Of a DNA stretch of 64,000 nt, positions 1-56,490 are shown piece after piece. Numbering within the stretch: position 1 is the stretch's first letter; each line of letters begins with the position of its first letter. This DNA comes from an uncultured Clostridia bacterium. GTDB taxonomy: Bacteria; Bacillota; Clostridia; Oscillospirales; Ruminococcaceae. Under the pieces are notes generated by a model. It was not told the DNA's origin and did not search any database. It was given only the letters and a program-made list of their open reading frames with translations. Position numbers and translations under genes: made by a program. Location of the stretch: positions 1 to 64,000 of the forward strand of contig CALWNN010000079.1 in NCBI GenBank assembly GCA_944382845.1, read 5' to 3'.

Positions 1-262
1 TCCATTCAGTTTTTCAGTGGGGGTTTTAATCCCCCACTGAAACCCTGAGGAGCAAAGCTCCTCGGCGACAGATTGCAATCGTCGCAACGTGATTAAGCGA
101 GCTTATCACGCTTTGCTCCGATTTAAACCAAGTCGCCTGTGTCCCCATGTCGAGTATTCGGCAGGGGTCATTCAGTCTTTCAGTGGAGATCGTTAGGAAT
201 CCTATACTGAAACCCTCCTGCGGAGCAGACTGCGACGAGTTGAATTCAAAAGGGCATATATC
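1..262 (-). repeat. Dispersed structured repeat, copy 1 (one and a half tandem units)
   Basis: Read on the minus strand, this interval carries the repeat also found near 8.9, 27.3, 36.4, 38.8 and 56.4 kb. One truncated unit lies at about 126-262. A second runs from about 128 to the window edge and continues beyond it. The units join at a TTTAAA next to the box TCGGAGCAAAG. Visible parts are a TTTCAGTGGGG/CCCCACTGAAA hairpin (13-42), GGAGCAAAGCTCC (49-61), the box ACTGAATG, and the closing box with GGGGACA and GGCGACTTGG (about 127-146, minus sense). No convincing gene is present; an 84-codon frame at 26-280 is made of repeat sequence. Confidence 0.8.
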
Positions 263-285
263 AATAAAAAATATCTGCACAATTA

Positions 286-1545
286 TTATTTAAGATAAAA
301 TGCCTTTGCTCCGTGAGAAGGAATTGTTACTTTTATTGATTCTTCAAACTTATATCCTTTTCCGCTCCAAAGCTCATCAGCCGATACATTGTTATAAATT
401 TCAAGATCTGAAAGAGGGAAGTCAGCTTCGGCGGTTTTGTCGCCTGTGTTAAAGACAGCAACGTACTGCCCGCCATCTGAACTTACAGCTGTCCACAAAA
501 TAAACTCGTTTCCGTTTATTTTCCTCTTCCAAACCTGATGAGCATGGCGGGAATTTCTGTGCATTGAAAGAATTCCTTCGTTTGTCAGAAGGCTCATTGT
601 AAAGTTGTCCAAGGCTGTCATTTCACCGCCGATCATAAGCGGAGAGCGGAAAATGCTCCACAAGGTCATCATTGTTATCTGTTCGTCTTTTGTAAACTTT
701 GTAAAGTTGTCCTTGCCGTAATCCTGCAAGATAGGACCTACGGGAAGCATATCGGCGTCGGGGAAATGACCTGCACCCGAATGTATGCTCCACTTTTCCG
801 CACGTTCAAACATTGCGTATAAAAGCTCCCACTGATCCCAGAAATCGTCGGTTATTCGCCACATATTTGAAACCTGCTTGTAAAGCTCAGCTTTTTCAAG
901 AAGAGCGGGTCCCGGAGATATGCTGAGTACCATATCCCTGCCGCAGTTTTTAAGCGCTTCCGACAGCATGACAAGCTCCGTTTCCTCATGAGGAAGCTCT
1001 CTTGCAATATCGTCGCACTTAATAAAATCAACTCCCCACTGGGCATAAAGCTTGAAAATGCTTTCATAGTATTCCTTTGCTCCCTCTTTTTCAGGGTCAA
1101 CGCCATACATATCGGTATTCCAATTACAAATGCTCGAGGTCTTTGCAATCTGTCTTGCAGTCTTGTTTGTTCCTAAAATTTTAAGGTTTTTATGAACAGC
1201 TTGTCTTGGGATTCCTCTCATAATGTGAATACCGAATTTAAGTCCGAGGGAGTGAATAAATTCCGCCAAAGGAGCAAATCCCTTTCCTCCTTTAGCCGAG
1301 GGGAATCTATTCTCAGCAGGGATAAGCCGTGAATATTCATCCATGCACAGATCACAGAAAGGCTCGTACTCGTGATTCTTTGCGGTCTCATTACTCCACT
1401 GAATATCCACAACTATATATTCCCATCCGAATTTTTTAAGGTTTTTTGCCATGAATTCAGCATTTTTCCGTACAATTTCTTCGTTTACAGCCGCACCGTA
1501 ACAGTCCCAGCTATTCCAGCCCATTGGGGCAGTCATTAATTTCAT
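286..1545 (-). CDS. GH27 family glycoside hydrolase (alpha-galactosidase or beta-L-arabinopyranosidase)
   Basis: A 419-residue clan GH-D hydrolase with no signal peptide, so it probably works in the cytoplasm on imported oligosaccharides. The N terminus has the GH27 signature APMGWNSWDCYG (residues 6-17). The nucleophile is predicted as Asp178 in FIKCDD and the acid/base as Asp234 in WRITDDFWD. A (beta/alpha)8 barrel is followed by a C-terminal beta domain from about residue 335. It is the last gene of a minus-strand operon, 2 bases after the GH43 gene and downstream of AraD and a pentulose kinase. GH27 includes alpha-galactosidases and beta-L-arabinopyranosidases; the pentose context makes the second a real option. 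Substrate is not decided by sequence alone. Confidence 0.88.
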   Translation of the reverse strand: MKLMTAPMGWNSWDCYGAAVNEEIVRKNAEFMAKNLKKFGWEYIVVDIQWSNETAKNHEYEPFCDLCMDEYSRLIPAENRFPSAKGGKGFAPLAEFIHSLGLKFGIHIMRGIPRQAVHKNLKILGTNKTARQIAKTSSICNWNTDMYGVDPEKEGAKEYYESIFKLYAQWGVDFIKCDDIARELPHEETELVMLSEALKNCGRDMVLSISPGPALLEKAELYKQVSNMWRITDDFWDQWELLYAMFERAEKWSIHSGAGHFPDADMLPVGPILQDYGKDNFTKFTKDEQITMMTLWSIFRSPLMIGGEMTALDNFTMSLLTNEGILSMHRNSRHAHQVWKRKINGNEFILWTAVSSDGGQYVAVFNTGDKTAEADFPLSDLEIYNNVSADELWSGKGYKFEESIKVTIPSHGAKAFYLK

Positions 1546-1547
1546 TG

Positions 1548-3041
1548 TCAGATCTCCCTTTCATTGCTGTCAGTATAGTTAATAGTGAAATCCGTAAACT
1601 CGGCAGTGTTGTTTCCTATGGCGTAAAGACCTAAAACAACTCCCGTAAAGCCGCCCGAAACCTCGCTTGAAAGGTATTTTGCGCTTCCATATCCCAAGGA
1701 AGTAGTTGTTCCATTGTCGTTAACCATAAAGCTATAACCAAAGTTATCGGATTTTATAACAAGTTGAGCTTTATTGTCCGATAGCCTTACTGCATTCTGA
1801 ATATGCTTGATGTCACCGATGTTAAGCTTTAGTACAGCTTCGTAATATTCTCCGTTTTTCTTTATGGCAATATCATAATGCTCGTTTTCGCACATATATA
1901 CAGTTACTCCGCCCTCTCCGCTGTCAATTTCAACCGAAACAGAAAGGTCCATTTTAAAATCACGTTGTCTGAGTCCTATAAACGTAGGAGTATCAGCCAT
2001 ATCAAGAGTAATTTCAGTTCCGTTTAAAATAGCCTTATGTGGAAGTAATGTATAATTCTCCTTTTTGGGGTGACGAAGATACAGCCATTCAATATCCCAC
2101 GGAGTATTCTCAAAAGTGTACGATGTTTTTCTGGTCTGGGCAAAATCTCCCGTTATTTCATATTCAAATTCTGTTGTTCCGTCATTTCCGGCAGTAAACC
2201 AACCGTCCTTCCACTTGACAGGAGTCAAGAACACCTCTCTGCCAAGGTGATGATATGGCTGCCAGTGATGTATCTGACGAAAGCCTAAGGAAAGAATGAA
2301 CCAATCTCCGTCAGGAGTCTCGATAAGGTCGCCGTGACCTATACCCTGAATTATATAAGGGGCTTTGTTGCGGTTTGTAAGAACAGGATTCTTGCTGTAG
2401 TTTTCAAATGGTCCCCAAGGAGAATCCGACCGTCCGTAGGTTATCATATGTCCGTATTCGGTTCCTCCTTCAGCAGCCATAAGATAGTAATATTCGCCTA
2501 TTTTATAAAGGTGAGGGCTTTCAAGATAACGTCCTCCCGAACCTTTCCAGATACATTTTGTCCTTGAGAGTTTTTTTCCTGTTTTTATGTCGATCTCACA
2601 CTGGCAAACTCCTCCCTCGCCATCATCGTCTGTACCGTTTGACGTGAAATATACCTTTTCACCGTCAAACAGCAGGGAAGGGTCTATTCCACCCTGGTCA
2701 ACATAAACAGGCTCGCTCCACTCGCCGTATATATCATCTGTATAAACATAAAAATTCTTATGTGTGGTATCGTTTGTGGTAACCATGTAGAATCTTTCGT
2801 TGTTATAACGTATAGTCGGAGCAAACACTCCACCTGAGCTATTGATCTTATCAAGCTCGACCTGTGACTTTCTTGTCAAAACGTTTCCTATCTGTTTAAA
2901 ATTCACAAGGTCGTCGCTTTCAAAAAGAGGAACTCCCGGAAAGTACTGAAACGAACTGCACACAAGATAGTATTTCCCGTTGGCATAGCACACGCTTGGA
3001 TCGGGATAAAACCCTTTGATAATCGGATTTACATACTTCAT
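1548..3041 (-). CDS. GH43 family glycoside hydrolase (beta-xylosidase / alpha-L-arabinofuranosidase)
   Basis: About 497 residues. It is a five-bladed beta-propeller GH43 enzyme that removes xylose or arabinose from short xylan or arabinan oligomers. The three acidic landmarks are visible: Asp in NPIIKGFYPDPSV near the N terminus (base), Asp in GGIDPSLLFDG (pKa modulator) and Glu in RYLESPHLYK (acid). A C-terminal beta-sandwich of about 190 residues follows, as in long beta-xylosidases. The ATG at 3041 is chosen because AAGGAG lies just upstream; a longer frame from 3071 would overlap the end of AraD. No signal peptide, so intracellular. It sits between AraD and GH27 in one operon. Substrate preference remains open. 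Confidence 0.88.
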   Translation of the reverse strand: MKYVNPIIKGFYPDPSVCYANGKYYLVCSSFQYFPGVPLFESDDLVNFKQIGNVLTRKSQVELDKINSSGGVFAPTIRYNNERFYMVTTNDTTHKNFYVYTDDIYGEWSEPVYVDQGGIDPSLLFDGEKVYFTSNGTDDDGEGGVCQCEIDIKTGKKLSRTKCIWKGSGGRYLESPHLYKIGEYYYLMAAEGGTEYGHMITYGRSDSPWGPFENYSKNPVLTNRNKAPYIIQGIGHGDLIETPDGDWFILSLGFRQIHHWQPYHHLGREVFLTPVKWKDGWFTAGNDGTTEFEYEITGDFAQTRKTSYTFENTPWDIEWLYLRHPKKENYTLLPHKAILNGTEITLDMADTPTFIGLRQRDFKMDLSVSVEIDSGEGGVTVYMCENEHYDIAIKKNGEYYEAVLKLNIGDIKHIQNAVRLSDNKAQLVIKSDNFGYSFMVNDNGTTTSLGYGSAKYLSSEVSGGFTGVVLGLYAIGNNTAEFTDFTINYTDSNEREI

Positions 3042-3057
3042 GATTAAAAAAACTCCT

Positions 3058-3750
3058 TCAGCCTTGTCCATAGTAGGCGTTTTTGCCGTGTTTTCTTAAA
3101 TAATGCCTGTCAAGAAGCTCTTTTGAAAGATCAGACGCATTACTGTTTAACATTAAAGCGTGGAAATTCATAAAAGCAACTTCTTCCAGAACAACTGCAT
3201 TATGAACCGCTTCAAAGGGGTCTTTTCCCCATGCAAAAGGTCCGTGATTTTTAACAAGAACAGCAGGAACAGTAAGGGGATCGATACTTCCGAATGTTTC
3301 AATGATCACCTTTCCTGTTTCCTTTTCGTATTCACCTTTTATTTCCTCAGGTGTCATATCCCTTGTGCAGGGTATTTCACCGTAAAAATAATCTCCGTGA
3401 GTCGTTCCCATAGGCGTTATCCCAAGCCCTGCCTGAGCAAACGATGTGGCCCAGCGGCTGTGGGTGTGAACTATTCCGCCCAGATTGTTGTATCTCCTGT
3501 AAAGTTCAAGATGAGTCGGGGTATCGCTTGAGGGACGATAATTTCCCTCAACGGATTCACCTGTTTTTATATCCACAACTACCATATCATCTGAAGTCAT
3601 TTCTTTGTATGATACTCCAGAAGGCTTGATTACCATAAGACCAGTTTCAGCGTCCCTTGCGGAAACGTTTCCCCATGTAAATGTTACAAGTCCGTATTCG
3701 GGAAGCATTAAATTTGCCTTTAAAACTTCTTCCTTTAATTTTTCAAGCAT
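3058..3750 (-). CDS. araD: L-ribulose-5-phosphate 4-epimerase
   Basis: A 230-residue class II aldolase-fold enzyme that converts L-ribulose 5-phosphate to D-xylulose 5-phosphate, feeding arabinose into the pentose phosphate pathway. Features seen are the N-terminal FTWGNVSAR phosphate-binding segment, KPSGVSY, and [12 protein letters not shown]. The zinc-binding histidines are in [16 protein letters not shown], with a further histidine in [12 protein letters not shown]. Length is typical of AraD. The stop lies one base from the downstream end of the kinase gene, so the two genes are almost certainly co-transcribed and translationally coupled. L-arabinose isomerase (AraA) is not in this window, so the pathway is completed elsewhere or an isomerase is shared. 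Confidence 0.92.
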
Positions 3751-3751
3751 A

Positions 3752-5320
3752 CTATTTCACCTCTTCAAGCTTTCTTTGGGCCGACAGTCCTGTTTTATAA
3801 AGCTTCATGTAATCGTCAAAGCCTTTTACTCCATCTTTCAAAGGCGTTACAGTCTGTTTTTTCATATTGGCAAAAACCTTGTTTTCAAGCCAGTCGGGAA
3901 GTTCCTCTTTGCCGCCGTCAGCCATATATGCCGCAAGAATGGACATTCCCCATGCGCCGCCCTCTCCTGCGGTTTTCATTACCGAAACAGGAGTGTTCAA
4001 AGCGTCTGAAAGTATCTGTTGAGCCGCACCCTGAACCTTGAAAAGTCCTCCGTGGGCTGTAAATTGCAAAGCCTTTACATACTCGTTTTCAAACAAAATA
4101 TCCATTCCCATTTTAAGGGCAGCCATTGACGAATAAAGCTGGCTTCTCATAAAATTAGAAAGATTCATTTTTCCCTCCGGAAGTCTGAAATACGTTGGTC
4201 TGCCTTTGTCTACATATGCTACAGGCTCGCCTGAAAGAAAGTTATAAGAAATAACCTTTCCGCAGTCGGTATCTCCTTTCATTGCGTTTAGATAAAGCTT
4301 TTGGTACAATTCCGACTTGTCCGCACTTATTCCCATAAGAGTGCAAAATTCATCAAAGATATTTACCCACACGTCAAGTTCGCTACAGCAGTTATTGCAG
4401 TGTACCATTGCAACAGGTGCGCCATGGGGAGTGGTTACCATATCTATTTCCGGATAAACCCCTTTCAGATCATTATCAAGAACAAGCATTGAAAAGATTG
4501 ACGTTCCGCCTGAAACATTTCCTGTTCCGGGTCTTACGGCGTTTGCCGCAGTCATACCTGTTCCTGCGTCTCCTTCGGGAGGGCAGAGAGCAACTCCTGC
4601 TTTGAAGACTCCTGTAGGGTCAAGGAATTTAGCTCCGGATTCGGTTAATATCCCACCGTGTTCTCCTGCAAGTCTGACTTCGGGGAAAATACGGAGTATC
4701 TTTTTATCAAAGCCTTTTTCACAAAGCAGGCTTTCATATTTCGCCGTCATTTCGGGGTTATAATTATTTTTTAAAACAGGGAAAATTCCTGAGGCTTCGC
4801 CGATACCAACGACTTTTTCACCTGTGAGAATATAGTGGACATATCCCGCAAGGGTCGTTACATAAGAAATATTATCTATATGCTTTTCCTTTGAAAGAAC
4901 AGCCTGATAAAGATGCGCGCAGGTCCATCGCTGAGGAATGTTGAATCCCAATGCTTTGGTAAGTTCATCTGCGGCTTGCGAAGTAATTGTATTTCTCCAG
5001 GTCCTGAATGGAACAAGAAGGTTATCGTTTTCATCAAAAGCCATATAGCCGTGCATCATTGCAGAAATTCCCATTGCGCCGCAGGTGGAAAATTCTACAT
5101 TATATTTACTTGAAACGTCTTTAGAAAGATCAGCAAAGCAGCTTTGAAGTCCGGTTTTTATATCCTCAAGAGAATACGTCCATATACCGTTTTCAAGTCG
5201 GTTTTCCCATGTGTAGCTACCCATTGCCAACGGGTTAAGGTTTTCGTCGGACAAAACGGCTTTTATTCTTGTTGAACCAAGTTCTATGCCTAAGTAAGTC
5301 TTATTAAGATCAATTGTCAC
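3752..5320 (-). CDS. FGGY-family pentulose kinase, probable L-ribulokinase
   Basis: About 522 residues of the FGGY sugar kinase fold. The first ATP-binding motif is [15 protein letters not shown] at the N terminus. The second domain shows [14 protein letters not shown] and [17 protein letters not shown]. It should phosphorylate a ketopentose. Because AraD follows directly, L-ribulose is the most likely substrate, although the sequence also resembles xylulokinases. A GTG start at 5320 is preferred: it has GGAG about nine bases upstream and leads straight into the conserved N terminus. A longer ATG frame from 5380 would overlap the promoter at 5352-5380. First gene of the operon kinase-araD-GH43-GH27. 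Confidence 0.8.
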
Positions 5321-5351
5321 AATATCATCTCCATGCACAAATGTTATCATA

Positions 5352-5380
5352 AGTATACAACTAAAACGAATTATTTTCAA
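5352..5380 (-). promoter_or_regulatory. Sigma-A promoter of the arabinose operon
   Basis: On the minus strand TTGAAA (5375-5380) is followed after exactly 17 bp by TATACT (5352-5357). Transcription would begin about 25-30 bases before the GTG start of the kinase, supporting that start. A GTATAC palindrome overlaps the -10; whether it belongs to an operator cannot be told. Confidence 0.65.
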
Positions 5381-5434
5381 GGGGATATCAAAAAAATATA
5401 CAAAAATAGCGCCGCTTAATGCAGCGCATTCATT

Positions 5435-5827
5435 CTACTGATAATCTATTCTTTCGATTTTAAATATAACAGGTCTTGTTCCGTCAGAGCAGCAGGTTAT
5501 CATAGTATTTTCTTCTTTCATCCACTGTTTCATTATAGAGCCGCCCTGAAGTCCTGCATAGATATATCTTGCGATAGCGTCCCACGCTTCAGAGCAAAAA
5601 GGGATCTTCGGTCCTCCGGCAACTGTGTCTGGATCTGCGTTTGTTTTGACAAGAGTATTAATTCCCATATGCCAGAAATCATCTCTTGTATCGTCACGGT
5701 AAAATTCAAAAACATCTCCCACATTATAGCAGGGACAAGCTCCGGAATTTGGGTCGATACAGTATTCCTGCTGAAGCTCAGGATAGAGCTTTTTGTCTAT
5801 AACGGTTACTCGCACTTTGTGTTTCAT
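5435..5827 (-). CDS. TIGR04076 family protein
   Basis: A 130-residue cytoplasmic protein. It has the pattern I associate with the TIGR04076 family of clostridia and archaea: an N-terminal VRVTVIDKKLYPEL strand, a cysteine-containing segment GACPCYNVGD, FCSEAWDAIARYIYAGLQGG in the middle, and a late CCSDGTRPVIFKIE. The cysteines (including CPC and CC) could bind metal, but no biochemical role is established. The stop of the MFS gene at 5824 overlaps this ATG by 4 bases, so it is the second gene of a small MFS-TIGR04076 operon. Regulation is not visible. Confidence 0.72.
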   Translation of the reverse strand: MKHKVRVTVIDKKLYPELQQEYCIDPNSGACPCYNVGDVFEFYRDDTRDDFWHMGINTLVKTNADPDTVAGGPKIPFCSEAWDAIARYIYAGLQGGSIMKQWMKEENTMITCCSDGTRPVIFKIERIDYQ

Positions 5828-7008: not shown

Positions 7009-7156
7009 TTTTCATGTTGTTTTTTAGTAATTTTCAGACAGTAGGCATTATACTATGAAAGCGTTCTGTTGTCAATCGGTGATACAATGTATAATTTATT
7101 AATTTTTCAAGATAAAGCGTTACGCAAAAAAGCCGGAATTATTCGCAGATTAAAAT

Positions 7157-7591
7157 TTATACGGGAATTTCAATACTATTATCTGTGAAATGTTCCAGCA
7201 TAGGTCTAATTATCCATTTGTCAATAAACTCTTCAAATTCGCCTTTTTCAACTCCGAAACAATGGTCGCCGTAATAAAAGTTACCCTCTGCGTCAGACAA
7301 GATAAGAGAACCGTCTCCGATAAAGCTTCCTATTGCGTAGTATCCTTTGAAATCATCGGGAAAATCAAGCTTTGTGATATTGCTTAACGGATAGATTTCC
7401 GAGCCGCTTTTTCTGAAGCCGTTTGCAAGGGCAATAAAATTCTTGTATCCTGTCGGAAGTTTTGCGTTATTTGATTTTTCCCACTCATCAATCTGCTCCT
7501 GTGAAACAGGTTCGGGAAACTTAAAGTTGTCTATGTCGTTCTCTTCAAGAGCGTTGGCAAGAACGGCTATTCTATTAAATTTTTTCTTCAT
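7157..7591 (-). CDS. SMI1/KNR4 (SUKH) family protein
   Basis: About 144 residues from the ATG at 7591; the frame is open to 7738, which would overlap the neighbouring gene. The SUKH pattern is clear: VSQEQIDEWEKSNNAKLPTGYKNFIALANGFR near the middle, then a strand-rich segment with GSFIGDGSLILSDAEGNFYYGDH. SUKH proteins act as immunity proteins for secreted or contact-dependent toxins, or as general binding modules. No toxin gene is seen beside it, so an orphan immunity role is only a suggestion. The ATG has no strong ribosome binding site, which makes the exact start uncertain. The next gene upstream is FkbM-like. Confidence 0.7.
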   Translation of the reverse strand: MKKKFNRIAVLANALEENDIDNFKFPEPVSQEQIDEWEKSNNAKLPTGYKNFIALANGFRKSGSEIYPLSNITKLDFPDDFKGYYAIGSFIGDGSLILSDAEGNFYYGDHCFGVEKGEFEEFIDKWIIRPMLEHFTDNSIEIPV

Positions 7592-7710
7592 ATTGACACA
7601 TCTATTCTTGAATTTTAGCATGAATCTTTTGCAAAAGGAATTGCTTGAATTTGTTGCGACAAAGTCTGCTAAATATTTCAGGAATTTATCATAAAATATC
7701 AAATCATTTT

Positions 7711-8860: not shown

Positions 8861-8982
8861 TTATAACCTTGTCACAGATATTCCCCTGCCGATTAATGCG
8901 GTGGATTTGATTCGGAATTTCAGCTGAGGCCGTTAGGGATCCTATACTGAAACCCTCCTGAGGAGCAAAACTCCCTGTGACG
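8861..8982 (-). repeat. Dispersed structured repeat, copy 2
   Basis: Minus-strand copy, truncated at its 5' end. It keeps GGAG...TTTTGCTCCTCAGGAGGG, the hairpin variant TTTCAGTATAGGATCCC...AGCTGAAA, and the closing CGGCAGGGG with a degraded GACATCGGCGACTTGG. It fills the gap between the FkbM gene and the PH-like gene. The same hairpin variant occurs in copy 1 (about 180-222) and in copy 5. Confidence 0.75.
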
Positions 8983-8994
8983 ATTAAAAAAAAC

Positions 8995-9432
8995 TTAAAA
9001 GTCCTCGTCAAAGGCCTCGTCAATATTACCTTGGTGAGGTCCGGGACCGCCAACCATATCCCTTCCTCTTATGCCATAACGGTCACGCTGAATATTAACA
9101 TACTTGTCAATAAGGTTTAGTACCATTCTTGGATTTTTTACGCCGTCAATAGTTTTAACCGGTGTGTCAACGTCCTTGACATTTACAATTATAGTTCCGC
9201 ATTTAAATAAGCGCTGGAAAAACGGCAACCGAAGCTTTTTATCGGTTACTCTGTAAAGATCGCATTCATCTTCGGTTATTGAAAGAAAGCCTTTTCTGGT
9301 GATGATTTTTTCCTTTGTTATAAAATATCTTGTAAAGGACAGAGGAAGTCCGAAAAGAGTTCTCTTTTTATCTGTCCATATATATTCAAATTCTTCTTTT
9401 TTCATAATGTGTTCATTCCCGCATCGGGGCAA
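8995..9432 (-). CDS. PH-domain-like hypothetical protein
   Basis: A 145-residue protein. Residues about 12-110 form alternating strands (YIWTDKKRTLFGLPLSFTRYFITKEKIITRKGFLSI, then LYRVTDKKLRLPFFQRLFKCGTIIVNV), as in bacterial PH-like (bPH2, YdbS/YdbT) domains. There is no membrane segment. The C-terminal tail is Gly/acid rich and disordered (GIRGRDMVGGPGPHQGNIDEAFDEDF). A TTG start at 9432 is chosen because GAGGAGGAG lies directly upstream. The internal ATG at 9405 has no ribosome binding site. Function is unknown; such domains often sit on membrane-associated assembly proteins. Confidence 0.65.
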   Translation of the reverse strand: MPRCGNEHIMKKEEFEYIWTDKKRTLFGLPLSFTRYFITKEKIITRKGFLSITEDECDLYRVTDKKLRLPFFQRLFKCGTIIVNVKDVDTPVKTIDGVKNPRMVLNLIDKYVNIQRDRYGIRGRDMVGGPGPHQGNIDEAFDEDF

Positions 9433-27265: not shown

Positions 27266-27270
27266 GGCTT

Positions 27271-27456
27271 AAAACGAAGCAAACTGCGACGAAAAGCAAC
27301 TCGTGATTGACAATGACAAGTCATTGTTTAGAGTTAGCGGCTCAGAGGGTTTCAATTAGGGGTTTTATACCCCGCTGAAAGACTGAATGGAATCTGTCGT
27401 CTATAGAGGCAGACCTGACGATTATTCGGCAGGGGGACATCGGTAACTTCATTTAA
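27271..27456 (+). repeat. Dispersed structured repeat, copy 3, inside the hydrogenase operon
   Basis: A nearly full copy (about 186 bp) starting six bases after the phosphatase stop. It contains GACAATGAC and GTCATTGTT arms (perfect hairpin), the GGGTTTCAA...CCCCGCTGAAA hairpin, AGACTGAATGGA, and the closing box CGGCAGGGGGACATCGG. It separates the phosphatase from HydA2, which starts 37 bases later. No -10 box is evident in it. Confidence 0.85.
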
Positions 27457-36351: not shown

Positions 36352-36416
36352 GGCTTTTTTTAAAAAAATATGCTTGAAATTTTCAACAAATGTGATATAA
36401 TTAAACTATATATTTT

Positions 36417-36470
36417 TAAATCGGAGCAAAGCTCCTCAAGGGGACATCGGCAAACCGGGTTATATATTTT
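36417..36470 (+). repeat. Dispersed structured repeat, copy 4, internally deleted
   Basis: Only the two ends of the element remain: TCGGAGCAAAGCTCC joined to CTCAAGGGGACATCGG and the terminal GGTTATATATTTT. The interior hairpins are missing. It gives the outer boundaries of the family and shows the ends can stay together without the core. Confidence 0.75.
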
Positions 36471-38713: not shown

Positions 38714-38787
38714 CAGTTTAAGAAATTATTTTACTATTTGTCAACAGTTTTTAGTTACAGAAGGGTTAGTTTTTAAACGGATTTATT

Positions 38788-38958
38788 AAAATCGGAGCAA
38801 AGCAGATTAAGCTTGCTTAAAATTGGCTGTGGCAGGTCATTGTTTAGAGCTTGCTTCTAAGGAGGGTTTGGGTATAGGATTTCTAAACGACCTCCACTGA
38901 ATTCCTGGATTAAACCATCCGCCTCAGAGGCGGGGGACATTGGCGACTTGGTTATATA
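38788..38958 (+). repeat. Dispersed structured repeat, copy 5
   Basis: A full-length copy of about 171 bp. It opens with AATCGGAGCAAAGC and shares GTCATTGTTTAGAG with copies 3 and 6. Its core is the second hairpin type, GGGTATAGGATTTC...CCTCCACTGAAT. It closes with GGGGGACATTGGCGACTTGG and TTATATATTTTA. It lies between the divergent phosphohexomutase and rpoB promoters. Confidence 0.85.
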
Positions 38959-48425: not shown

Positions 48426-48465
48426 GTTATTATAAATGTGCAAATCCAGTATTGGAGTGTTTAAT

Positions 48466-49251: not shown

Positions 49252-49275
49252 TTATGTAACGAAAGGAAATCATTG

Positions 49276-50817
49276 ATGCTCGAATCTGTTTTTTTGTTTA
49301 TTATAATGCTTATCTTTACTGCTTTAGGAACAATTAAAATGCTCCATATGTTTCAGCTTAATTCCTATAAGCCCAAGGAACAAATAAAGTGGTATAAGAA
49401 AAATATTTCAAAATTGCTCCCGTTTTATGCAGCATTTGTCGGTTTGTCTGCACTTACAATTATTGATAGGTGGTATGGAGCCTTTCTTGTCTTTGTTTTC
49501 TCGTATTCCCTTAATCCTTTTGAAAAGGCAAAAAAACCTCTTGTTTATACCCCGAGAGTGAAAAGGCTTCTTGTGACCTGTACAATAGTTTTTGCAGTTT
49601 TTGCGGTTGCGGTGTTTGTTGTTCCAAGTTCAAGAATAAAACTTCTTATTGCAGCCGTTGAAATGGGATTTATCCCGCTTACACTGCTTTTGTGTAACTA
49701 TATAAACAAGCCTGTTGAACTTTCGATTAATAAGCATTATATAAATGACGCCAAGAGAATGCTTGCCGCTTGTCCAAAGCTTAAAATTATCGGAGTAACG
49801 GGAAGCTTCGGCAAAACAAGTGTTAAATTCTACCTTAACACTCTTTTGAGAGCCAAATACAACGTACTTATGACTCCGGAAAGCTATAACACGCCAATGG
49901 GTATAGTTAAAACTATAAGAGGAAAGCTTAAAGCCACTCACGAAATTTTTATTTGCGAAATGGGTGCGAGAAATGTGGGTGATATCAAGGAAATATGCGA
50001 TATAGTTCACCCGGACCATGGTGTTATTACTTCTATCGGAGAGCAACACCTTGAAACCTTTAAAACTGTTGACAACATCATAAACACTAAGTTTGAGCTT
50101 GCAGACAGCCTTAATGACAAGGGTATCTTGTTTGTAAACGGCGACTGTGAGGCTATAACAACTCATAAGCATAAAAAAATGGAAAACGCAGTCACATACG
50201 GACTTGGTGAAAACTGTGCTTATCGTGCTTGTAACCTTAAAATTTCCGAAAAGGGAAGCGAGTTTACTGTTGTTGCGCCAAACGGAGAAAAATGTGATTT
50301 TGTTACAAAGCTAATAGGCACTCACAATGTTATTAATATCGTGGGAGCAATTGCCGTTTCAAATACACTAAGTACTCCTCTTGAAAAGCTCAAACCTCAG
50401 GTGAGAAAACTTGAATGCGTTCCTCACAGACTTCAGCTTATCAATCGCGGTGAGGTGATAGTTGTGGACGACGCTTATAACTCAAACCCAAGCGGAGCAA
50501 AAGCGGCTCTTGATACTATATCATATTTTGACGGAATGAAAATTCTTGTTACACCGGGAATGGTTGAGCTTGGTGAAAAACAGGAGGAACTTAACTACAA
50601 CTTTGGCAGACAGGCGGCAAATGTCTGCGATTGTATAATTCTTGTGGGAGAACGTCAGACAAAACCTATTTATAACGGAGTAAAAGACGCAGGCTATGAC
50701 ATGACCAAATGCTATGTTGCAAAGGATCTGAAAGACGCAGTCGATTACGCTTACGGACTCAAAACCGACAAAAAGAAGATAATGCTCCTTGAAAATGACC
50801 TGCCGGATAATTATTGA
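49276..50817 (+). CDS. Membrane-anchored MurF-like Mur ligase
   Basis: About 513 residues. The N-terminal 140 residues hold about four hydrophobic helices (MLESVFLFIIMLIFTALG, LLPFYAAFVGLSALTII, LLVTCTIVFAVFAVAVFVV, LLIAAVEMGFIPLTLLLC), which replace the usual substrate-binding domain. The Mur ATPase domain follows: GVTGSFGKTSVKFYL P-loop, EMGARNVGDIKEICDIVHPDHGVITSIGEQHLETF, and the C-terminal ligase domain with VVDDAYNSNPSGAKAALD. MurF adds D-Ala-D-Ala to UDP-MurNAc-tripeptide, and the ddl gene follows immediately. Whether this form is the only MurF or acts on a lipid-linked substrate is open. AAAGGA precedes the ATG. Confidence 0.82.
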   Translation: MLESVFLFIIMLIFTALGTIKMLHMFQLNSYKPKEQIKWYKKNISKLLPFYAAFVGLSALTIIDRWYGAFLVFVFSYSLNPFEKAKKPLVYTPRVKRLLVTCTIVFAVFAVAVFVVPSSRIKLLIAAVEMGFIPLTLLLCNYINKPVELSINKHYINDAKRMLAACPKLKIIGVTGSFGKTSVKFYLNTLLRAKYNVLMTPESYNTPMGIVKTIRGKLKATHEIFICEMGARNVGDIKEICDIVHPDHGVITSIGEQHLETFKTVDNIINTKFELADSLNDKGILFVNGDCEAITTHKHKKMENAVTYGLGENCAYRACNLKISEKGSEFTVVAPNGEKCDFVTKLIGTHNVINIVGAIAVSNTLSTPLEKLKPQVRKLECVPHRLQLINRGEVIVVDDAYNSNPSGAKAALDTISYFDGMKILVTPGMVELGEKQEELNYNFGRQAANVCDCIILVGERQTKPIYNGVKDAGYDMTKCYVAKDLKDAVDYAYGLKTDKKKIMLLENDLPDNY

Positions 50818-50842
50818 AAATTAATGAAAGGAAATGACATAT

Positions 50843-52033
50843 ATGAAAATCAAACTTGGAGTACTGTTCGGAGGAAAAAGCGTTGAACACGAAATTTCCG
50901 TTATTTCCGCCATTCAGGCAATAAACTCTCTCGACCGTGAGAAATATGACGTTATACCGATTTACATTACTAAAAATAACGAATTTTATGTTGGTGAAAA
51001 AATCGGAGATATTTCTTCATACAAGAATATTCCCTCGCTTTTAAAGGAAAGCCAGAGAGTTATTTTCGTTTCCGGGGACAACAAGACCGAGCTTGTGAGA
51101 TATCCTTTTAAGGCATTCGGAAAGAATGTGGTTGACTATATCGATATCGCTTTTCCAATAGTTCACGGAACAAATGTTGAGGACGGCGCTTTGCAGGGCT
51201 TTCTGAAAACTCTTAACCTTCCATTTGTGGGCTGCGATGTGCTTTCTTCCGCTGTTGGAATGGATAAATATGTTATGAAAACAGTTTTAAAGGATAACGG
51301 TATCCCTGTTCTTGATTGCAAATGCTTCCTTGCAAGCGACTATTCAGACCCTGAAAAAGTCATGGACGCAATTGAAAAGGAAATAGGATATCCTGTTATT
51401 GTAAAGCCGGTAAATCTGGGTTCTTCTGTGGGGATTTCCATGGCGGACGACAGAAACAGCCTTTACGACGCACTGAGCAATGCTTTTGACTACGCTTCAA
51501 AGGTGCTTGTTGAAAAGTATATAAAGAATTTAAAGGAAATAAACTGCTCTGTTGTAGGGGACGTTGATGAGGCAGAGGCTTCAGAATGTGAACAGCCTGT
51601 AAATAATGATAAAATACTTTCCTATGACGAAAAATATCTTGGTAATAAAAAGGGTGGCGCAAGCAAAGGCATGGCGTCAACATCTCGTCTTATTCCGGCA
51701 GATATAACAAGCGCTGTCCGCGAGGAGATACGAACTCTTGCAGTTAAAGCCTTTAAATGCCTCGGCTGTAACGGCGTTTCAAGAATTGATTTTATGATAG
51801 ATATGGATACTGATAAGATATGGTTTAACGAAATAAATACCATTCCCGGAAGTCTTTCCTTCTATCTCTGGAAGCCTCTTGGAGTTTCATATACAGAGCT
51901 TCTTGACCGCATGATAAATCTCGCTCTTAAGCGTGAGAGGGAACAGGAAAATATAACCTATTCCTTTGACACAAATGTACTTGAAGGGATAAATCTTTCG
52001 GGCACAAAAGGTTCAAAAGGAACAAAAATGTAA
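50843..52033 (+). CDS. ddl: D-alanine--D-alanine ligase
   Basis: About 396 residues, an ATP-grasp enzyme that makes the D-Ala-D-Ala dipeptide for peptidoglycan. Motifs are LFGGKSVEHEISVISA at the N terminus, VHGTNVEDGALQGFL, KPVNLGSSVGIS, and the omega-loop YDEKYLG...GGASKGMASTSRLIP. The end motif is RIDFMIDMDTDKIWFNEINTIPGSLSFYLW. A Lys/Glu-rich insert of about 20 residues (EAEASECEQPVNNDK) extends one loop. It directly follows the MurF-like gene, the classical pairing. ATG 50843 is preferred over the ATG at 50834, which lies too close to the AAAGGA. Confidence 0.94.
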   Translation: MKIKLGVLFGGKSVEHEISVISAIQAINSLDREKYDVIPIYITKNNEFYVGEKIGDISSYKNIPSLLKESQRVIFVSGDNKTELVRYPFKAFGKNVVDYIDIAFPIVHGTNVEDGALQGFLKTLNLPFVGCDVLSSAVGMDKYVMKTVLKDNGIPVLDCKCFLASDYSDPEKVMDAIEKEIGYPVIVKPVNLGSSVGISMADDRNSLYDALSNAFDYASKVLVEKYIKNLKEINCSVVGDVDEAEASECEQPVNNDKILSYDEKYLGNKKGGASKGMASTSRLIPADITSAVREEIRTLAVKAFKCLGCNGVSRIDFMIDMDTDKIWFNEINTIPGSLSFYLWKPLGVSYTELLDRMINLALKREREQENITYSFDTNVLEGINLSGTKGSKGTKM

Positions 52034-52123
52034 GATTGATCCAAGAATTTCTGCTTAAAAAATTATATCTCATTTTAATATTTTTGTATCCGACTGTTAT
52101 TGTGTAATCGTTTTTCGTGTTAA

Positions 52124-52154
52124 TTGCACAATTTGATAGCTAATAATTGTGCAA
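52124..52154. promoter_or_regulatory. Perfect inverted repeat upstream of the lipoprotein promoter
   Basis: TTGCACAATT (52124-52133) and AATTGTGCAA (52145-52154), 10-bp arms with an 11-bp spacer, 8 bases upstream of the -35 box. Spacing of about two helical turns suits a dimeric regulator. Confidence 0.5.
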
Positions 52155-52162
52155 AAAACCAA

Positions 52163-52191
52163 TTGTATAACAGTTAGAATTCTGATATAAT
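52163..52191 (+). promoter_or_regulatory. Promoter of the lipoprotein gene
   Basis: TTGTAT (52163-52168), 17-bp spacer, TATAAT (52186-52191). Confidence 0.65.
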
Positions 52192-52240
52192 TTTAGATGT
52201 AAATAAACTTTGATTAATTCAAAGATATGGAGGAAAAAAC

Positions 52241-53128
52241 ATGAAAAAGCTTTTAGCTGCAGCACTTGCTGTAATTATGACTTGTTCAGTTATGACAGCC
52301 TGCGGAAATGATGAATCTTCATCTGATACAGGCTCATCAAACGATTCATCTACCACCACAACAACCCCAGCAGCGACAACACCTGCTGAAACACCTGCTT
52401 CTTCTGAAGAAGGCGATTCTCCTTCTGAAAGTGAAGGAGATGGAAGCGAAGAGGACGTTCCTCAGCCAAGAGATATTTCTGAGGCTGCAGGCGAACTCAA
52501 GTACCTTGAAGGCGCTTCTATCACATTTGATGGTATGGAAGAAGCTCCTGCTTATGTTTCAATGTTCAATGAGGAAAAAGGCGGACTTCTCCCCGGCGAC
52601 GAAGGTTATACAGGCGATGAGGCTATTCTTGAATTTTCAATTGAAGAAGTTTCAGGCGTTGATATGCTCAAAGTAAATAACGTTCCTAAGGATGACGGAA
52701 CATACAATGGTTCAAAGATTCGTTTTGACATGGCTAAGATTTTTGAAGGTCAAGAAGATAAAATGAATGATATCTTCACTGTTAAGGCAGACCTTATCCT
52801 TGTAGCTAAGGACGAGGCAACAAACGATCAGGGTGAATCTGCACTTGTTCCCGGCTGGGTAGGCGGTTCCTTCGGTACAAACAACAACGGTGAATGGAAC
52901 GGTAACATGATCGAATGGTCAGGAAATGAATGGACATCTGAATGGTGCTACGTTGAACTTAAGATCACTCCCGGTATCTATGGCGCAGACAGTGCAGCAA
53001 CCTTTAACAGTTCTTATGAAACAAATTATCTTGCACTTATGGAGTGGGGTATTTCACATGATATAGATCTTTACATTGCTGATCTCGTATTTGAAACTGA
53101 AGACGGAACAGTAATTACTGTTGACTGA
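52241..53128 (+). CDS. Secreted lipoprotein with beta-sandwich domain
   Basis: A 295-residue lipoprotein: signal MKKLLAAALAVIMTCSVMTACG with lipobox MTAC (Cys21). A 70-residue linker rich in Ser, Thr, Pro and Glu follows. Residues about 90-295 form one domain, beta-rich, with WVGGSFGTNNNGEWNGNMIEW, WTSEWCYVELKITPG, and a last strand IDLYIADLVFETEDGTV. That layout resembles a carbohydrate-binding jelly-roll, with several exposed Trp, but I cannot name the family. The motif WVGG..G.N with later EW repeats recurs in the anchored protein at 47486. It is a one-gene unit with promoter, inverted repeat and terminator. Confidence 0.72.
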   Translation: MKKLLAAALAVIMTCSVMTACGNDESSSDTGSSNDSSTTTTTPAATTPAETPASSEEGDSPSESEGDGSEEDVPQPRDISEAAGELKYLEGASITFDGMEEAPAYVSMFNEEKGGLLPGDEGYTGDEAILEFSIEEVSGVDMLKVNNVPKDDGTYNGSKIRFDMAKIFEGQEDKMNDIFTVKADLILVAKDEATNDQGESALVPGWVGGSFGTNNNGEWNGNMIEWSGNEWTSEWCYVELKITPGIYGADSAATFNSSYETNYLALMEWGISHDIDLYIADLVFETEDGTVITVD

Positions 53129-53162
53129 TCTAAAGATTAAGTTATTGGTTACATAACAAAAC

Positions 53163-53197
53163 AAAGCAGTATCGATATAATTCGGTACTGCTTTTTT
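53163..53197. terminator. Bidirectional terminator between converging lipoprotein genes
   Basis: AAAGCAGTATCG (53163-53174) pairs with CGGTACTGCTTT (53183-53194); T runs occur on the plus strand after and A runs before on the other side. Confidence 0.85.
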
Positions 53198-53200
53198 AAT

Positions 53201-53713
53201 CTAAATTTTTTTGAAATCTGAAATCTTTACTTCAAATTCATTTCCGCTTATTTCGATCAGAAGTGGTATTTTGTTTTTGAATGTGACTTTGTAATCTGCT
53301 CCGTCAACCACGCCTGAAACAATAATGTTTTCGCCATCTATTTCAGCTTTTGCCGACGAGTCGTTCAAGGCATTGTCAATTACTTTTGATATCAGAGATG
53401 GGATAGAGGTTTCAGGAAGATTTTCACGCTGTCCTGTGACGCTTATTCCGTCAAAATCAATGGTAAGCTTTTCGTTTTCAAGTGTGAAATCCATGCCGTT
53501 AAGACTGTCGGGAGATGTGTATGAAAGCTCCCATACATCGCTTTTTCTTGTTATATCCGCTTCATAATCGTGTTCTGAGTAATTAATCTGTGCAGTGAAA
53601 GTAAAATCTCCGTCGATTTTAGGCTTTTGAACTTCATCCTTTGAACATGAACAAAAAAGGACGGCAAGAATAACTGTCGCCCCGGTAAAAATAGCTTTTG
53701 CCATATGCTTCAT
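53201..53713 (-). CDS. Small lipoprotein, possibly LolA-like
   Basis: A 170-residue lipoprotein with signal MKHMAKAIFTGATVILAVLFCSC and lipobox-type FCSC. The rest is strand-rich (GDFTFTAQINYSEHDYEADITRKSDVWELSYTSPDSL... KVTFKNKIPLLIEISGNEFEVKISDF). It forms one curved sheet of the LolA/YdcC kind. In Bacillus a YdcC-type lipoprotein lies by acpS, as here. Function unknown. It is the last gene of a minus-strand group with nnr and acpS, 15 bases after nnr. The start could also be three codons later. Confidence 0.68.
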   Translation of the reverse strand: MKHMAKAIFTGATVILAVLFCSCSKDEVQKPKIDGDFTFTAQINYSEHDYEADITRKSDVWELSYTSPDSLNGMDFTLENEKLTIDFDGISVTGQRENLPETSIPSLISKVIDNALNDSSAKAEIDGENIIVSGVVDGADYKVTFKNKIPLLIEISGNEFEVKISDFKKI

Positions 53714-53728
53714 AAGCGTTCCAGCTCC

Positions 53729-55255
53729 TTAAATAGAAAGTTCTTTCATGACGCAGGGCAAAGCTGACAGTATATCTGAAGCTACAATTCCACGCTGGGA
53801 CGCAGACTCTGAAAGCTTCTCGGAAGTAACTCCGAGAAGTATGCTTGCAGCGGCACAAGCTTCGGCAGGGCTTACCCCCTGGGCAATAAACGAGCCTGTT
53901 ATTCCTGCAAGCATATCGCCGCTTCCTCCTTTAGAAAGCGCAGTATTGCCGAAATCCGCAAAATAAACCTTGTCTGTGTCTGAGTCGGCAATAAACGTTC
54001 CTGCGCCCTTTGCCATTACGACAGTATTAAACTCCTTTGAAAGCTTAACTGCAAAATCAAGCCTGCCTGCTGCCGCATCGCTTAACGAAACTCTGCAAAG
54101 CCGTGCAAGTTCAGCCGGATGAGGAGTTAAAACAATCTTTGCCTTTGCGCCTGATAATACATTTATATTCAGACTTAGAGAATTAATTCCGTCGGCGTCA
54201 ATAATCACCGGGATTTCAACGTTTTTTATAATTGCTTCAATCATTTTAAGGTTGTTCAAAGATTTTGTTATGCCGCAGCCGATAAGAATAGCAGAAGCCT
54301 TTCTGGCCTTTTCAACAACTGCCATTGCAGTCCTGTAAGGCGTTAAAAAATCGCAGGGGGTGTAGATTATTTCAGGAGAAAGTCCCCACATTCCGCTTAT
54401 GACTTTTTCGCTGCTGAAAAGCTCTACAAGCCCGACTCCTGTTCTCATTGCAGCAGTTGCAGACAAAGCAGCAGCGCCCCGGTAATTGTCGCTTCCACAG
54501 AGGCAAAGAAGCTTTCCAAAAGTACCCTTGTGACCGTTTTCAGGTCGCTTTGGAAGATTCCGAAAAGGGAAGTCGCCGTTTACCTTTATAATTTCATATT
54601 CCGAATATTTTTCAGATTCTTTTGGAATTTCAATGTCTACTGTAACCATATCTCCGCAGTAAGACTTGGCAGGCTTCATAAGACAGCCTATTTTTTCAGC
54701 GTGAAATGTTACCGTAAAGTCAAATTTCATAGTGCCGAATGAGGTTTCACCTGTAAGGCAATTTACTCCGGACGGCATATCGCAAGCTATCTTCAAACCG
54801 CTGTATTTATCTGCAAGATTGAAAATCTCCGTAATATTTTCAGGCAGTTCGCCGTGAAATCCTGTTCCGAAAACTGCGTCAACAATAACTGAACATCCCT
54901 CGAAAGCCGTTGAAAAATCATTTTCAACAACTTTAACAGACTGACTGAGCTTTGAATAAGCATTGATTGCAAGTTCGGTTTTGGGTTTTCCGCAAACAAG
55001 ACAGACAGTAACGTCAAATCCGTCTGCGCAAAGATGGTTGGCGCACACAAATCCATCGCCACCATTGTTTCCTCTGCCGCATAGGATAACTATTTTCTTT
55101 GAGGAAAGTTCGCCTTTTGTGAGCCTTTCCATTGCGGTTTTTCTTATAAAACGGCCGAGCTCATATCCTGCATTGTCCATAAGTCTGCCAAGGGAAATGC
55201 CGCATTTTACTGCGTACTGCTCAGCAGCGGTCATTTGCTTCGGAGTAAGTATCAT
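53729..55255 (-). CDS. nnr: Bifunctional NAD(P)H-hydrate repair enzyme
   Basis: A 508-residue fusion of two repair enzymes for hydrated NAD(P)H. The N-terminal YjeF_N epimerase domain (about 1-215) shows CGRGNNGGDGFVCANHLCADG and VDAVFGTGFHGELP. The C-terminal ADP/ATP-dependent dehydratase (about 225-505) shows GHKGTFGKLLCLCGSDNYRGAAALSATAAMRTGVGLV, LTPHPAELARL, and GNTALSKGGSGDMLAGITGSFIAQG. It lies 2 bases after acpS, so the two are translationally linked. A cofactor-repair role in the cytoplasm is well supported. Confidence 0.94.
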   Translation of the reverse strand: MILTPKQMTAAEQYAVKCGISLGRLMDNAGYELGRFIRKTAMERLTKGELSSKKIVILCGRGNNGGDGFVCANHLCADGFDVTVCLVCGKPKTELAINAYSKLSQSVKVVENDFSTAFEGCSVIVDAVFGTGFHGELPENITEIFNLADKYSGLKIACDMPSGVNCLTGETSFGTMKFDFTVTFHAEKIGCLMKPAKSYCGDMVTVDIEIPKESEKYSEYEIIKVNGDFPFRNLPKRPENGHKGTFGKLLCLCGSDNYRGAAALSATAAMRTGVGLVELFSSEKVISGMWGLSPEIIYTPCDFLTPYRTAMAVVEKARKASAILIGCGITKSLNNLKMIEAIIKNVEIPVIIDADGINSLSLNINVLSGAKAKIVLTPHPAELARLCRVSLSDAAAGRLDFAVKLSKEFNTVVMAKGAGTFIADSDTDKVYFADFGNTALSKGGSGDMLAGITGSFIAQGVSPAEACAAASILLGVTSEKLSESASQRGIVASDILSALPCVMKELSI

Positions 55256-55257
55256 AT

Positions 55258-55626
55258 TTATTCCTTCCTTTTAAATGCAATAACAACAGCGCTTGCAAGC
55301 TCATGAGTGTGAGTGATGCTCACTGAAAAGTCAAGCCCAAGCCTGTCTGCAAGTTCTTTTGCTTTGCCCTCAAGTTCAATATAAGGCGCCCCCAATTTGT
55401 CGCGGAGAATTGATATTTCGCATAATGAAAAATCTCTTACTCCTGTTCCTACGGCTTTTGAAAAAGCTTCTTTCGCCGCCCAGTTTCCCGCCATGGACTC
55501 CGTAGGGTTTTTCTTTGACAAAAAAAGGGCAAGCTCCTTTTCGGAGAAGACCCTTTCCATAAAACGAGGCTTTGCGGAACAGCGTTTTATTCGTTCAATC
55601 TCGATCATGTCAATTCCAACAAGCAT
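55258..55626 (-). CDS. acpS: Holo-[acyl-carrier-protein] synthase
   Basis: A 122-residue 4'-phosphopantetheinyl transferase that activates acyl carrier protein. Motifs: MLVGIDMIEIERIKRC with the metal-binding Asp, FSEKELALF, WAAKEAFSKAVGTGVR with the conserved Glu, and SITHTHELASAVVIA. Length and motifs are standard. It sits between the putative DUF6106 gene and nnr in one minus-strand group. No anomaly. Confidence 0.95.
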   Translation of the reverse strand: MLVGIDMIEIERIKRCSAKPRFMERVFSEKELALFLSKKNPTESMAGNWAAKEAFSKAVGTGVRDFSLCEISILRDKLGAPYIELEGKAKELADRLGLDFSVSITHTHELASAVVIAFKRKE

Positions 55627-55652
55627 AAAATTACCTCAGTTATATTTAAAAA

Positions 55653-56165
55653 TTAATTATCCTGCATTCTTAATTTTCTTGGAAGATAGCCTTTAATAAG
55701 TTCAAGCATTTCTTCGTTGGGAGTAAAAATGAGATAGCAGTTTCCGTGATCCTTGTGATTAAATTCCATGTACCAATCTCCCTCGCCAAGTCCGGAGGAA
55801 GCAATAACTGTAACATAGTCGTCGTTAAATTGAACATCATCTGTCACGGGTCCGATTGCGGTTGCAGTGGAGATCTTGAAAGTTATAAGTCTTTTTCTTG
55901 AACGTTGACCTGTAATCTTGTCAATGTCAAGTTCTCCGTTTGTAAAGAGGTATTCGTACTCGACACTCATGCCCTTAATAAGAAAAGCAAGTCCGTAAAA
56001 CATTGCAAGAACAAGAAAAATGCCGATAACAGCAAAAATTGTTGGCAAGGTAAGTACCAAAATAAATGCGGCAAGGGAAATTGCCATTAAAATAAGTATA
56101 AATTTTTTAAAATCGTCCCTTTGAGTGGTTGCTTTTTTAACAAGCTGTTCCTTATAAACGTCCAT
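55653..56165 (-). CDS. Membrane protein of unknown function (DUF6106-like)
   Basis: A 170-residue protein. A basic N terminus (MDVYKEQLVKKATTQRDDFKK) precedes two hydrophobic helices at about residues 22-43 and 46-66. The C-terminal 100 residues form a strand-rich cytoplasmic domain with EYEYLFTNGELDIDKITGQRSRKRL and VTDDVQFNDDYVTVIASSG. The pattern resembles the DUF6106 proteins I recall from clostridia. It shares the strand with acpS, 26 bases upstream of it. Function unknown. Confidence 0.6.
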   Translation of the reverse strand: MDVYKEQLVKKATTQRDDFKKFILILMAISLAAFILVLTLPTIFAVIGIFLVLAMFYGLAFLIKGMSVEYEYLFTNGELDIDKITGQRSRKRLITFKISTATAIGPVTDDVQFNDDYVTVIASSGLGEGDWYMEFNHKDHGNCYLIFTPNEEMLELIKGYLPRKLRMQDN

Positions 56166-56310
56166 AGTAGCTCCTTTAAAATTATTATAATAAGTAATTA
56201 TACCACATAACTAATTATTTCACAAGTGTTTTTTGCAAAAATCCAGCGTGACCTGTGTGACTCTGAATCAGTTTCATTTCTATCTTGTAAATTTTTTGCA
56301 TTTGCCGGAA

Positions 56311-56490
56311 TATAACCAAGTCGCCGATGTTCTCCTGATTAAACGGTAGATCTGTCTCATATAGGATGCGGAATCCATTCAGTTATTCAGTGGGGTGATA
56401 ATTTCCCGCTGAAACCCGAGGAGCAAACTCTAAACAATGACTTGTCATTGTTAATAACGAGTTGCAATAACGCTTTGCTCCGATTTAAAA
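56311..56490 (-). repeat. Dispersed structured repeat, copy 6
   Basis: A full minus-strand copy of about 180 bp. It has TCGGAGCAAAGCG, AACAATGAC/GTCATTGTT arms, the first hairpin type (TTTCAGCGGG...CCCCACTGAAT), AACTGAATGGA, and closing GAACATCGGCGACTTGG. Between the DUF6106 gene and this copy (56166-56310) and from here to the terminator at 56629 I see no gene. Confidence 0.85.

Follow-up and report, generated by a model that had tools for sequence, protein, structure and literature searches.

Investigating a stretch of 64,000 nucleotides from an uncultured Clostridia bacterium of the Ruminococcaceae (GenBank assembly GCA_944382845.1, contig CALWNN010000079.1, positions 1 to 64,000), which as a whole is called the window in the following, we came to regard a set of intergenic repeats as, on balance probably, a non-autonomous mobile DNA element, which is composed of hairpin units, resembles the IS200/IS605 insertion sequences and would be moved as a single strand. 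Its copies range from a single unit of 24 bases to about 330 bases. The observations behind this reading are direct ones: the repeats form a family with defined ends and a conserved fold, their units are chained, TTATA is their neighbour, no target duplication is detectable and their orientation is biased. These features fit an IS200/IS605-like non-autonomous element, which would be comparable to the palindrome-associated transposable elements (PATEs), better than an RNA gene or a miniature inverted-repeat transposable element (MITE). The original prediction for this DNA, made from the letters of the window, had listed six intergenic sites sharing one ordered set of blocks and had favoured an RNA structure.

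In the genome to which the window belongs (G000, 2,135,633 bases, 2.14 Mb), the 21-mer of the right end was found at 141 places (76 + 65) when up to three mismatches were allowed, and at none for the reversed control; the genome scan for further copies that the original prediction had called for brought up far more than the six sites. At up to two mismatches, the 21-mer is absent from four other genomes of the window's genus, and a sample of 397 genomes of the family has it in two. In its exact form it occurs in a public genome collection in 27 stretches belonging to two assemblies, CAMMVF01 (uncultured Clostridia) and CALXIQ01 (uncultured Ruminococcus), which supplied 34 distinct copies, 20 having the length of full copies in these assemblies (163-190 bases). 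Eighteen copies of CAMMVF01 and CALXIQ01 served to build a covariance model (R1), which in 833 kb of G000 matched 98 places at an expectation value (E) of up to 0.01 when antisense and overlapping readings are counted, and 67 without overlaps. The scan of other genomes with such a model, likewise proposed in the original prediction, revealed relatives in the family (28 of the 397 genomes, 13 of 126 genera) as well as in the order (17 of 375 genomes, 12 of 167 genera, six families in the grouping of the search tool; 7 of these 17 carriers are also among the 28), the E-values being rough, so that single matches with weak scores may be spurious. The relatives have diverged in sequence but retain the order of parts. 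Within the window's genus, R1 detected two diverged matches in G003, three in G004 and none in G001 and G002, whereby at most seven candidates were scored per genome and all R1 copy numbers are lower bounds. The median pairwise identity of copies amounts to 95.8% in G379, a genome of another genus (19 copies), 90.8% in CAMMVF01 (18 full copies) and 78.3% in G000 (32 copies). The family is a high-copy one, which turns over within the genus.

No match was obtained in viral contigs (exact 19-mer) or in phages and plasmids (blastn with one copy), and searches of the open-licence PMC literature brought up no earlier description of the repeat that we recognised. Rfam searches of the window and of 20 loci with element copies gave no match to the element; only tRNA, FMN, SRP and Gut-1 were matched elsewhere, the Gut-1 RNA at L082:6825-6907 (-), near element copies of CAMMVF01. 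The original prediction had not recognised the family, which holds as far as Rfam is concerned; its kind is a known one, fitting the small mobile repeats of the PATE, REP and BOX type. Seven contigs of G000 (C7, C20, C25, C29, C55, C79 and C84) have their start in an element copy or no more than about 50 bases from one, and the most uniform copies may therefore be under-represented in the assembly.

The limits of the element are sharp. In the alignment of 110 left and 93 right ends, the edges read TTTAAATC at the left and GGTTATA at the right, and outside of them the composition is near background; the left-end set contains chance matches, by which the left conservation is understated. The conserved outer edges TTTAA and TTATA were missing from the repeat as delimited in the original prediction. 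Paired ends in G000 lie 86-328 bases apart, with one further pairing at 673, and most copies in G379 measure 143 bases, so the element is too short for encoding a transposase. The initial statement that no transposase is seen stands for the spans examined: no gene was found in 833 kb of G000 between ends up to 700 bases apart or beside those lone ends that were read, longer gene-carrying copies not having been searched for systematically. Lone left ends in this genome mostly reflect a mutated right end, a truncation or a chance match within a gene.

The element is a mosaic or chain of hairpin units, each of which starts with TTYAA, the last one being followed by TTATA. This is most easily seen in G379, where 385 kb contain 23 sense matches of R1 at E up to 0.001. 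An imperfect palindrome of 24 bases, TTCAATAAGGGGCTTGCCCCGTCA, has 33 places in these 385 kb (up to four mismatches) and is followed by TTCAA, the start of a next unit, at 26 of them, by TTATA, where the unit stands alone, at six and by another sequence at one. TTATA makes up 0.2% of the 5-mers there and adjoins six of the seven unchained 24-base units; in two cases the 24-base unit is doubled. Corresponding tandem junctions are found in G000, where GG is directly followed by TTTAAATCGG at window positions 121-129 and GA by TTTAAATCGG on contig C3 near 8.9 kb, and where a doubled minimal form reads TTTAAATCGG twice in succession and then TTATA. In the first of these junctions two copies stand head to tail, and the CCAAGTCGCC end of one abuts the TTTAA of the other in the usual place of TTATA. 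As a unit is located directly 5' of either TTATA or the TTYAA of the next unit, TTATA is not carried along with the preceding unit. Copies also display a modular organisation of end, middle and end.

The two flanks of 95 copies (61 of G000, 34 of CAMMVF01/CALXIQ01; those scoring below 14 at the left end or lying too close to a locus edge were left out) show no consistent target duplication of 2-9 bases, whatever the offset, the test being blind to a duplication inside the constant edges (TT or TA). The left and right pentamers of these 95 flank pairs consistently differ, and GTTATA closes 76 of 95 copies. Comparison of G000 copies with G002 and G003 started from 95 candidate places, and for 15 of them the two flanks could be located. 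At least three of these 15 (indices 1, 68 and 91) are ends paired by chance within conserved coding sequence, and one is a clean empty site, in G002 of the same genus: judged by eye, it carries TTCAA and an adjoining one-base indel where G000 has the element. A second case is offered by a copy in G379, which lies inside an open reading frame between atpD and atpC that is continuous in G759. Here the length difference equals the element minus five bases; if these five are placed at the junction, the frame is preserved with a former TATAA (in element orientation, TTATA), whereas TTGAA leads to a stop (by eye); the reading frames compare as H F I I T M S versus H F I V T I S. Neither of the two empty sites is decisive, and the identification of TTATA as the target, which is partly shown, draws mainly on the chains of units.

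On the opposite strand the element reads TATAA, hairpins, TTRAA. With TATAA outside the left end, subterminal hairpins, the similar pentanucleotide TTRAA closing the right end and no duplication, this is a layout of the IS200/IS605 type, a group characterised by a short target next to the left end and by the lack of a duplication. If the TATAA...TTRAA strand is used in the lagging-strand template, the element is expected to be oriented against the G-rich strand, which according to the general skew of bacterial genomes is the leading strand. The fork direction was taken from the GC skew, with no origin mapped. Exactly this orientation was observed for 60 of 78 right ends in G000 (p = 2e-6; at least two of the 78 are chance matches in genes), 19 of 29 places in G379 (which include unchained 24-base units) and 21 of 32 in CAMMVF01; pooled, 100 of 139 follow it (p = 2e-7), the copies of one genome being related and hence not fully independent. 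Between convergent or divergent flanking genes, 28 of 40 obey the same rule (p = 0.017), and with both neighbouring genes on the C-rich strand the ratio in G000 is 5:1 in favour of the bias; here, too, the copies of one genome are related.

The fold is kept above the sequence. A copy of CAMMVF01 folds as DNA with -60.9 kcal/mol compared to -25.7 +/- 3.0 for shuffles (z = -11.8), its palindromes lying near both termini, with stems that start after four bases and stop three from the end; a G000 copy with some flank, folded as RNA, gives z = -10.0. In the predicted fold, a first domain just after TTTA consists of a stem around one long hairpin, and a second one, whose end lies immediately before ATA, of the stem ACCGTCGCCG/CGGCGACTTGGT enclosing three hairpins. 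In an alignment of 56 matches (A4), which was fitted to the tested structure and includes 11 antisense readings, 89.9% of the cells pair and 59 of 61 pairs are changed on both sides, in 554 cells, as compared to 140 in shuffles and 85-115 when columns are slid by 1-3; without the 11 antisense rows, 84.3% of the cells are Watson-Crick pairs and 4.5% are G.T. Several pairs of the closing stem of domain 2 pass through all four Watson-Crick types. At its foot AAC pairs with GTT, the GTT of GTTATA (columns 140-142 with 356-358), and here the outer two pairs fail in one and two rows and the third in 13. Across six families, the fold is conserved more than the sequence, and the claim that stems change in sequence yet stay paired was borne out by this count of compensatory changes.

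We infer that the mover of the element is a Y1/HUH enzyme. Such a transposase, supplied in trans by an IS605-type element now or in the past, would cut the folded single strand at TATAA and TTRAA, and the strand would be joined 3' of TATAA; modules might be gained or lost by insertion into existing copies and by slippage between hairpins. In line with such a source, the left-end hairpins of IS605-type elements (tnpA together with tnpB) in G379, GTCCCCTACCTCTAAGG, and G234, GTCTCCTTCCTCTTAGG, resemble hairpin D of the element, ATGTCCCCCGCCTCTAAGG, with GTCCCC..CCTCTAAGG and GTCTCC..CCTCTTAGG, respectively, as the compared motifs and a similar distance from TAAC. The genomes with more-alike copies, G379 and CAMMVF01 (as G767), both have uninterrupted Y1 genes, these being two genomes only.

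A number of observations weigh against this reading and should be stated together. Carriers are not enriched in the Y1 domain PF01797 (10 of 28 versus 141 of 369 non-carriers, Fisher p = 0.84), which rules it out as a carrier marker, so that the model requires the enzyme to have been lost in many lineages, to come from outside or to be a different one. PF01797 is absent at E up to 0.05 from the carriers G147, G166, G232, G290 and G304, with six to seven R1 matches each, and the sole match in G000 at this threshold is a broken fragment with two in-frame stops (L267, contig C31:251-484), the surrounding 1,984 bases containing no right end and, at up to four mismatches, one chance-like left-end match. 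Uninterrupted Y1 genes also exist in other carriers such as G269 and G342, copy similarity having been compared in G379, CAMMVF01 and G000. The right end of the element is unlike the right ends of local IS605 elements, the left-end hairpins of tnpA-only elements (five genomes, and G345) are unlike hairpin D, and the hairpin of the IS605 element in CAMMVF01 is less like it. The orientation bias is not significant in G379 (p = 0.14) or CAMMVF01 (p = 0.11) taken alone, and between genes on the C-rich strand it is reversed in G379 (0:6), so that gene direction may be a second influence; the genome treated in PMC7290912 is described there as having no leading or lagging preference (10 of 22). As to the empty sites, the one in G002 fits TTYAA as target slightly better than TTATA (by eye). 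For the copy in G379, the flanks share only 32 of 60 and 36 of 60 bases with G759; among 29 placements of the five-base difference, that at the junction or one base on leads by one match, 68 versus 67, and MAFFT set the gap some bases upstream of it.

Among the alternatives, the one that survives best would be a BOX-like composite whose movement in trans is due to an as yet unrecognised enzyme outside the Y1 and DDE groups, its resemblance to IS200/IS605 elements being a convergence on single-strand hairpin substrates. We consider it unlikely, well aware that it would agree with the missing association with PF01797 and with the AAC/GTT foot of the right-hand domain, a closing triplet that recalls integron attC sites. 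An attC origin of this foot was considered and set aside, as the other core bases misfit the consensus. Modular units between fixed ends, as described for BOX (PMC3049150), would suit it as well. On the other side, the chain rule, the lack of duplication and the strand bias are traits of Y1 elements, and both genomes with more uniform copies possess uninterrupted Y1 genes.

Distinctly improbable, in our view, is a structured RNA, be it a transcribed regulator or an RNA-borne retroelement, which would be selected for its fold, its copies spreading as RNA or being kept for regulation. The very strong covariation speaks for it. So does an excess of G.T over A.C on the reported strand (110:73 and 160:121 in alignments fitted to the model, counted after 11 antisense rows out of 56 in A4 and 31 overlapping rows out of 98 in A3 had been left out), which is to be added to the points against a mobile DNA strand, and so does the RNA fold, whose stability in the divergent set is greater for the reported strand in 28 of 40 cases (p = 0.017). 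Fitted alignments, however, reward G-U pairs, and when stems are called without favouring G.T, the sign is reversed to 29:53 over four sets, the 53 belonging to the TATAA...TTRAA strand (three of the four sets are reversed; the divergent set gives 14:10). As the two methods give opposite signs, the wobble asymmetry was set aside as a proof of an RNA strand. In G000, CAMMVF01 and G379 the RNA energies show no significant preference for a strand, and no Rfam family was matched. The counts from strand-neutral calling and from the energies again include related copies of one genome. The high copy number and the turnover within the genus, with no right end (up to two mismatches) in four genus-mates, though R1 finds diverged matches in G003 and G004, also argue against an RNA. 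The original prediction had taken paired stems as favouring RNA; covariation alone does not make the element an RNA, and the behaviour learned here is that of DNA: sharp ends, a fixed adjoining pentamer, units chained head to tail, corresponding places in relatives that lack the copy, and a bias with respect to the replication strand.

A MITE moved by a DDE transposase of the IS630/Tc1 kind, whose TA duplication would be invisible to the flank test because TA is in both edges, and whose short terminal repeats would be the partly inverted edges that are imperfectly alike in CAMMVF01 copies (TTTAAATCTTCGCC / TATAACCAAGTCGCC), is very improbable, since the tandem junctions of GG with TTTAAATCGG and of CA with TTCAA misfit a TA common to both copies, no other duplication was found in the flanks, the two pentamers differ and no such terminal repeats are seen in the 24-base unit of G379.

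Returning to the window, the likeness among its sites is far beyond chance: GGGGACATCGGCGACTTGG occurs at three places (up to three mismatches; 0.00 expected) and TCGGAGCAAAG at ten (up to one mismatch; 1.38 expected), with all four exact places of the latter inside the named sites and the six one-mismatch places elsewhere in the window. Related sequence in consistent order and orientation is indeed present at all six sites; the blocks are not fixed. The ACAATGAC/GTCATTGT hairpin, proposed as a shared block, is clear at 27271 and 56311 and partial at 38788, and was not found at 1-262, 8861 and 36417 (by eye). Two further sites had to be reinterpreted: 1-262, regarded as one copy, consists of two head-to-tail elements, the first of which is cut by the contig start, and 36417, supposed to have the full set of blocks, is a short derivative with both ends and little between. 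R1 recovers three places at E < 1e-4 (1-127, 8862 and 56311) and is weaker at 27307 and 38786; the short derivative gave no match at E up to 5. The best-kept copy is 1a, with its left end TTTAAATCGG running down from 127; copies 3 and 6 share 75% identity over 27296-27449 (blastn). Most copies of the window are decayed.

Copies of the element in the window, with their extent and match to the covariance model R1
Feature	Position	Strand	Remarks
Copy 1a	1..127	-	R1 110.3 bits, model 1-126; 3' part lost at contig start
Copy 1b	128..244	-	left edge by eye; no separate R1 score
Copy 2, decayed	8862..9000	-	R1 37.6 bits; TATAA edge at 8862-8866
Copy 3, decayed, both ends mutated	27269..27456	+	R1 18.9 bits over 27307-27456, E = 0.002; ACAATGAC/GTCATTGT hairpin present; left edge by eye
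Copy 4, 50-base derivative	36415..36464	+	two ends only, TTTAAATCGGAGC ... GGTTATA
Copy 5, both ends kept	38786..38956	+	R1 16.4 bits, E = 0.0094
Copy 6, both ends kept, ACAATGAC/GTCATTGT hairpin	56311..56489	-	R1 27.9 bits

The window also contains tRNA genes at 56677-56750 (-), 62544-62616 (+) and 62676-62748 (+), the first of which is about 190 bases away from copy 6. Elsewhere, a palindromic derivative bounded by two left ends, TTTAAATCGGAGC ... GCTCCGATTTAAA, is located at L113:19203-19330 (contig C7), and in the copies of L103, L037 and L098 an additional AT-rich hairpin (TTGTTTTTATC...GATAAAAACAA or similar) lies within the TTTCAGTGG hairpin, perhaps another inserted small repeat.

A non-coding element whose fold is kept above its sequence in six families offers a rare view of selection acting on the secondary structure of a mobile DNA strand, and at the same time a natural series of gain, loss and exchange of units. 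Reading such folds as single-stranded DNA in replication is directly testable, and general caution should be undertaken in the discovery of RNAs by intergenic covariation, as strong covariation need not mean RNA. As a tentative and rather doubtful extension, one might think of self-folding single-strand DNA parasites that are distributed across an order without a dedicated transposase, with a unit as small as a 24-base hairpin; these units would insert before the TTYAA of each other and before genomic TTATA, would build and shuffle composites selected for their joint fold, and would use host or unrelated single-strand enzymes during lagging-strand replication.

Several known systems are linked to the element by common features. 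IS200/IS605 elements such as IS608 and ISDra2 are characterised in PMC7290912 by subterminal hairpins, single-strand transposition and lagging-strand preference; the element shares the subterminal hairpins, and its pooled orientation may point to the lagging-strand template, but it has no gene, a more elaborate fold and a right end unlike that of local IS605 elements. The PATEs of Haloquadratum walsbyi, as described in PMC3119063, are transposase-free and heterogeneous, with palindromes near the ends, no target duplication, a conserved terminal oligonucleotide taken as the targeting sequence and a link to IS605-type ends. The element likewise lacks a transposase, has heterogeneous members, palindromes near its ends and a fixed terminal oligonucleotide, and no duplication was found; in contrast to PATEs, the whole element is one covarying multi-hairpin fold across several families, its chainable units go down to 24 bases and only one end resembles local IS605. 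BOX of Streptococcus pneumoniae is a structured composite of 67-637 bp with end modules and optional or repeated middle modules, to which PMC3049150 ascribes terminal inverted repeats and target duplications but no transposase of its own; compared by description, the modular build of end, middle and end is alike, whereas the 95 copies revealed no target duplication. REP sequences with TnpA-REP (RAYT) are small palindromes, for the spread of which Y1-type enzymes are proposed in PMC6006769; again compared by description, they differ from the element in its unit edges TTYAA/TTATA, and the enzyme search made here was that for PF01797. Small non-autonomous palindromic mobile repeats are thus already known, and what the present element adds to them are its chainable units, its large covarying fold and its conservation across families.

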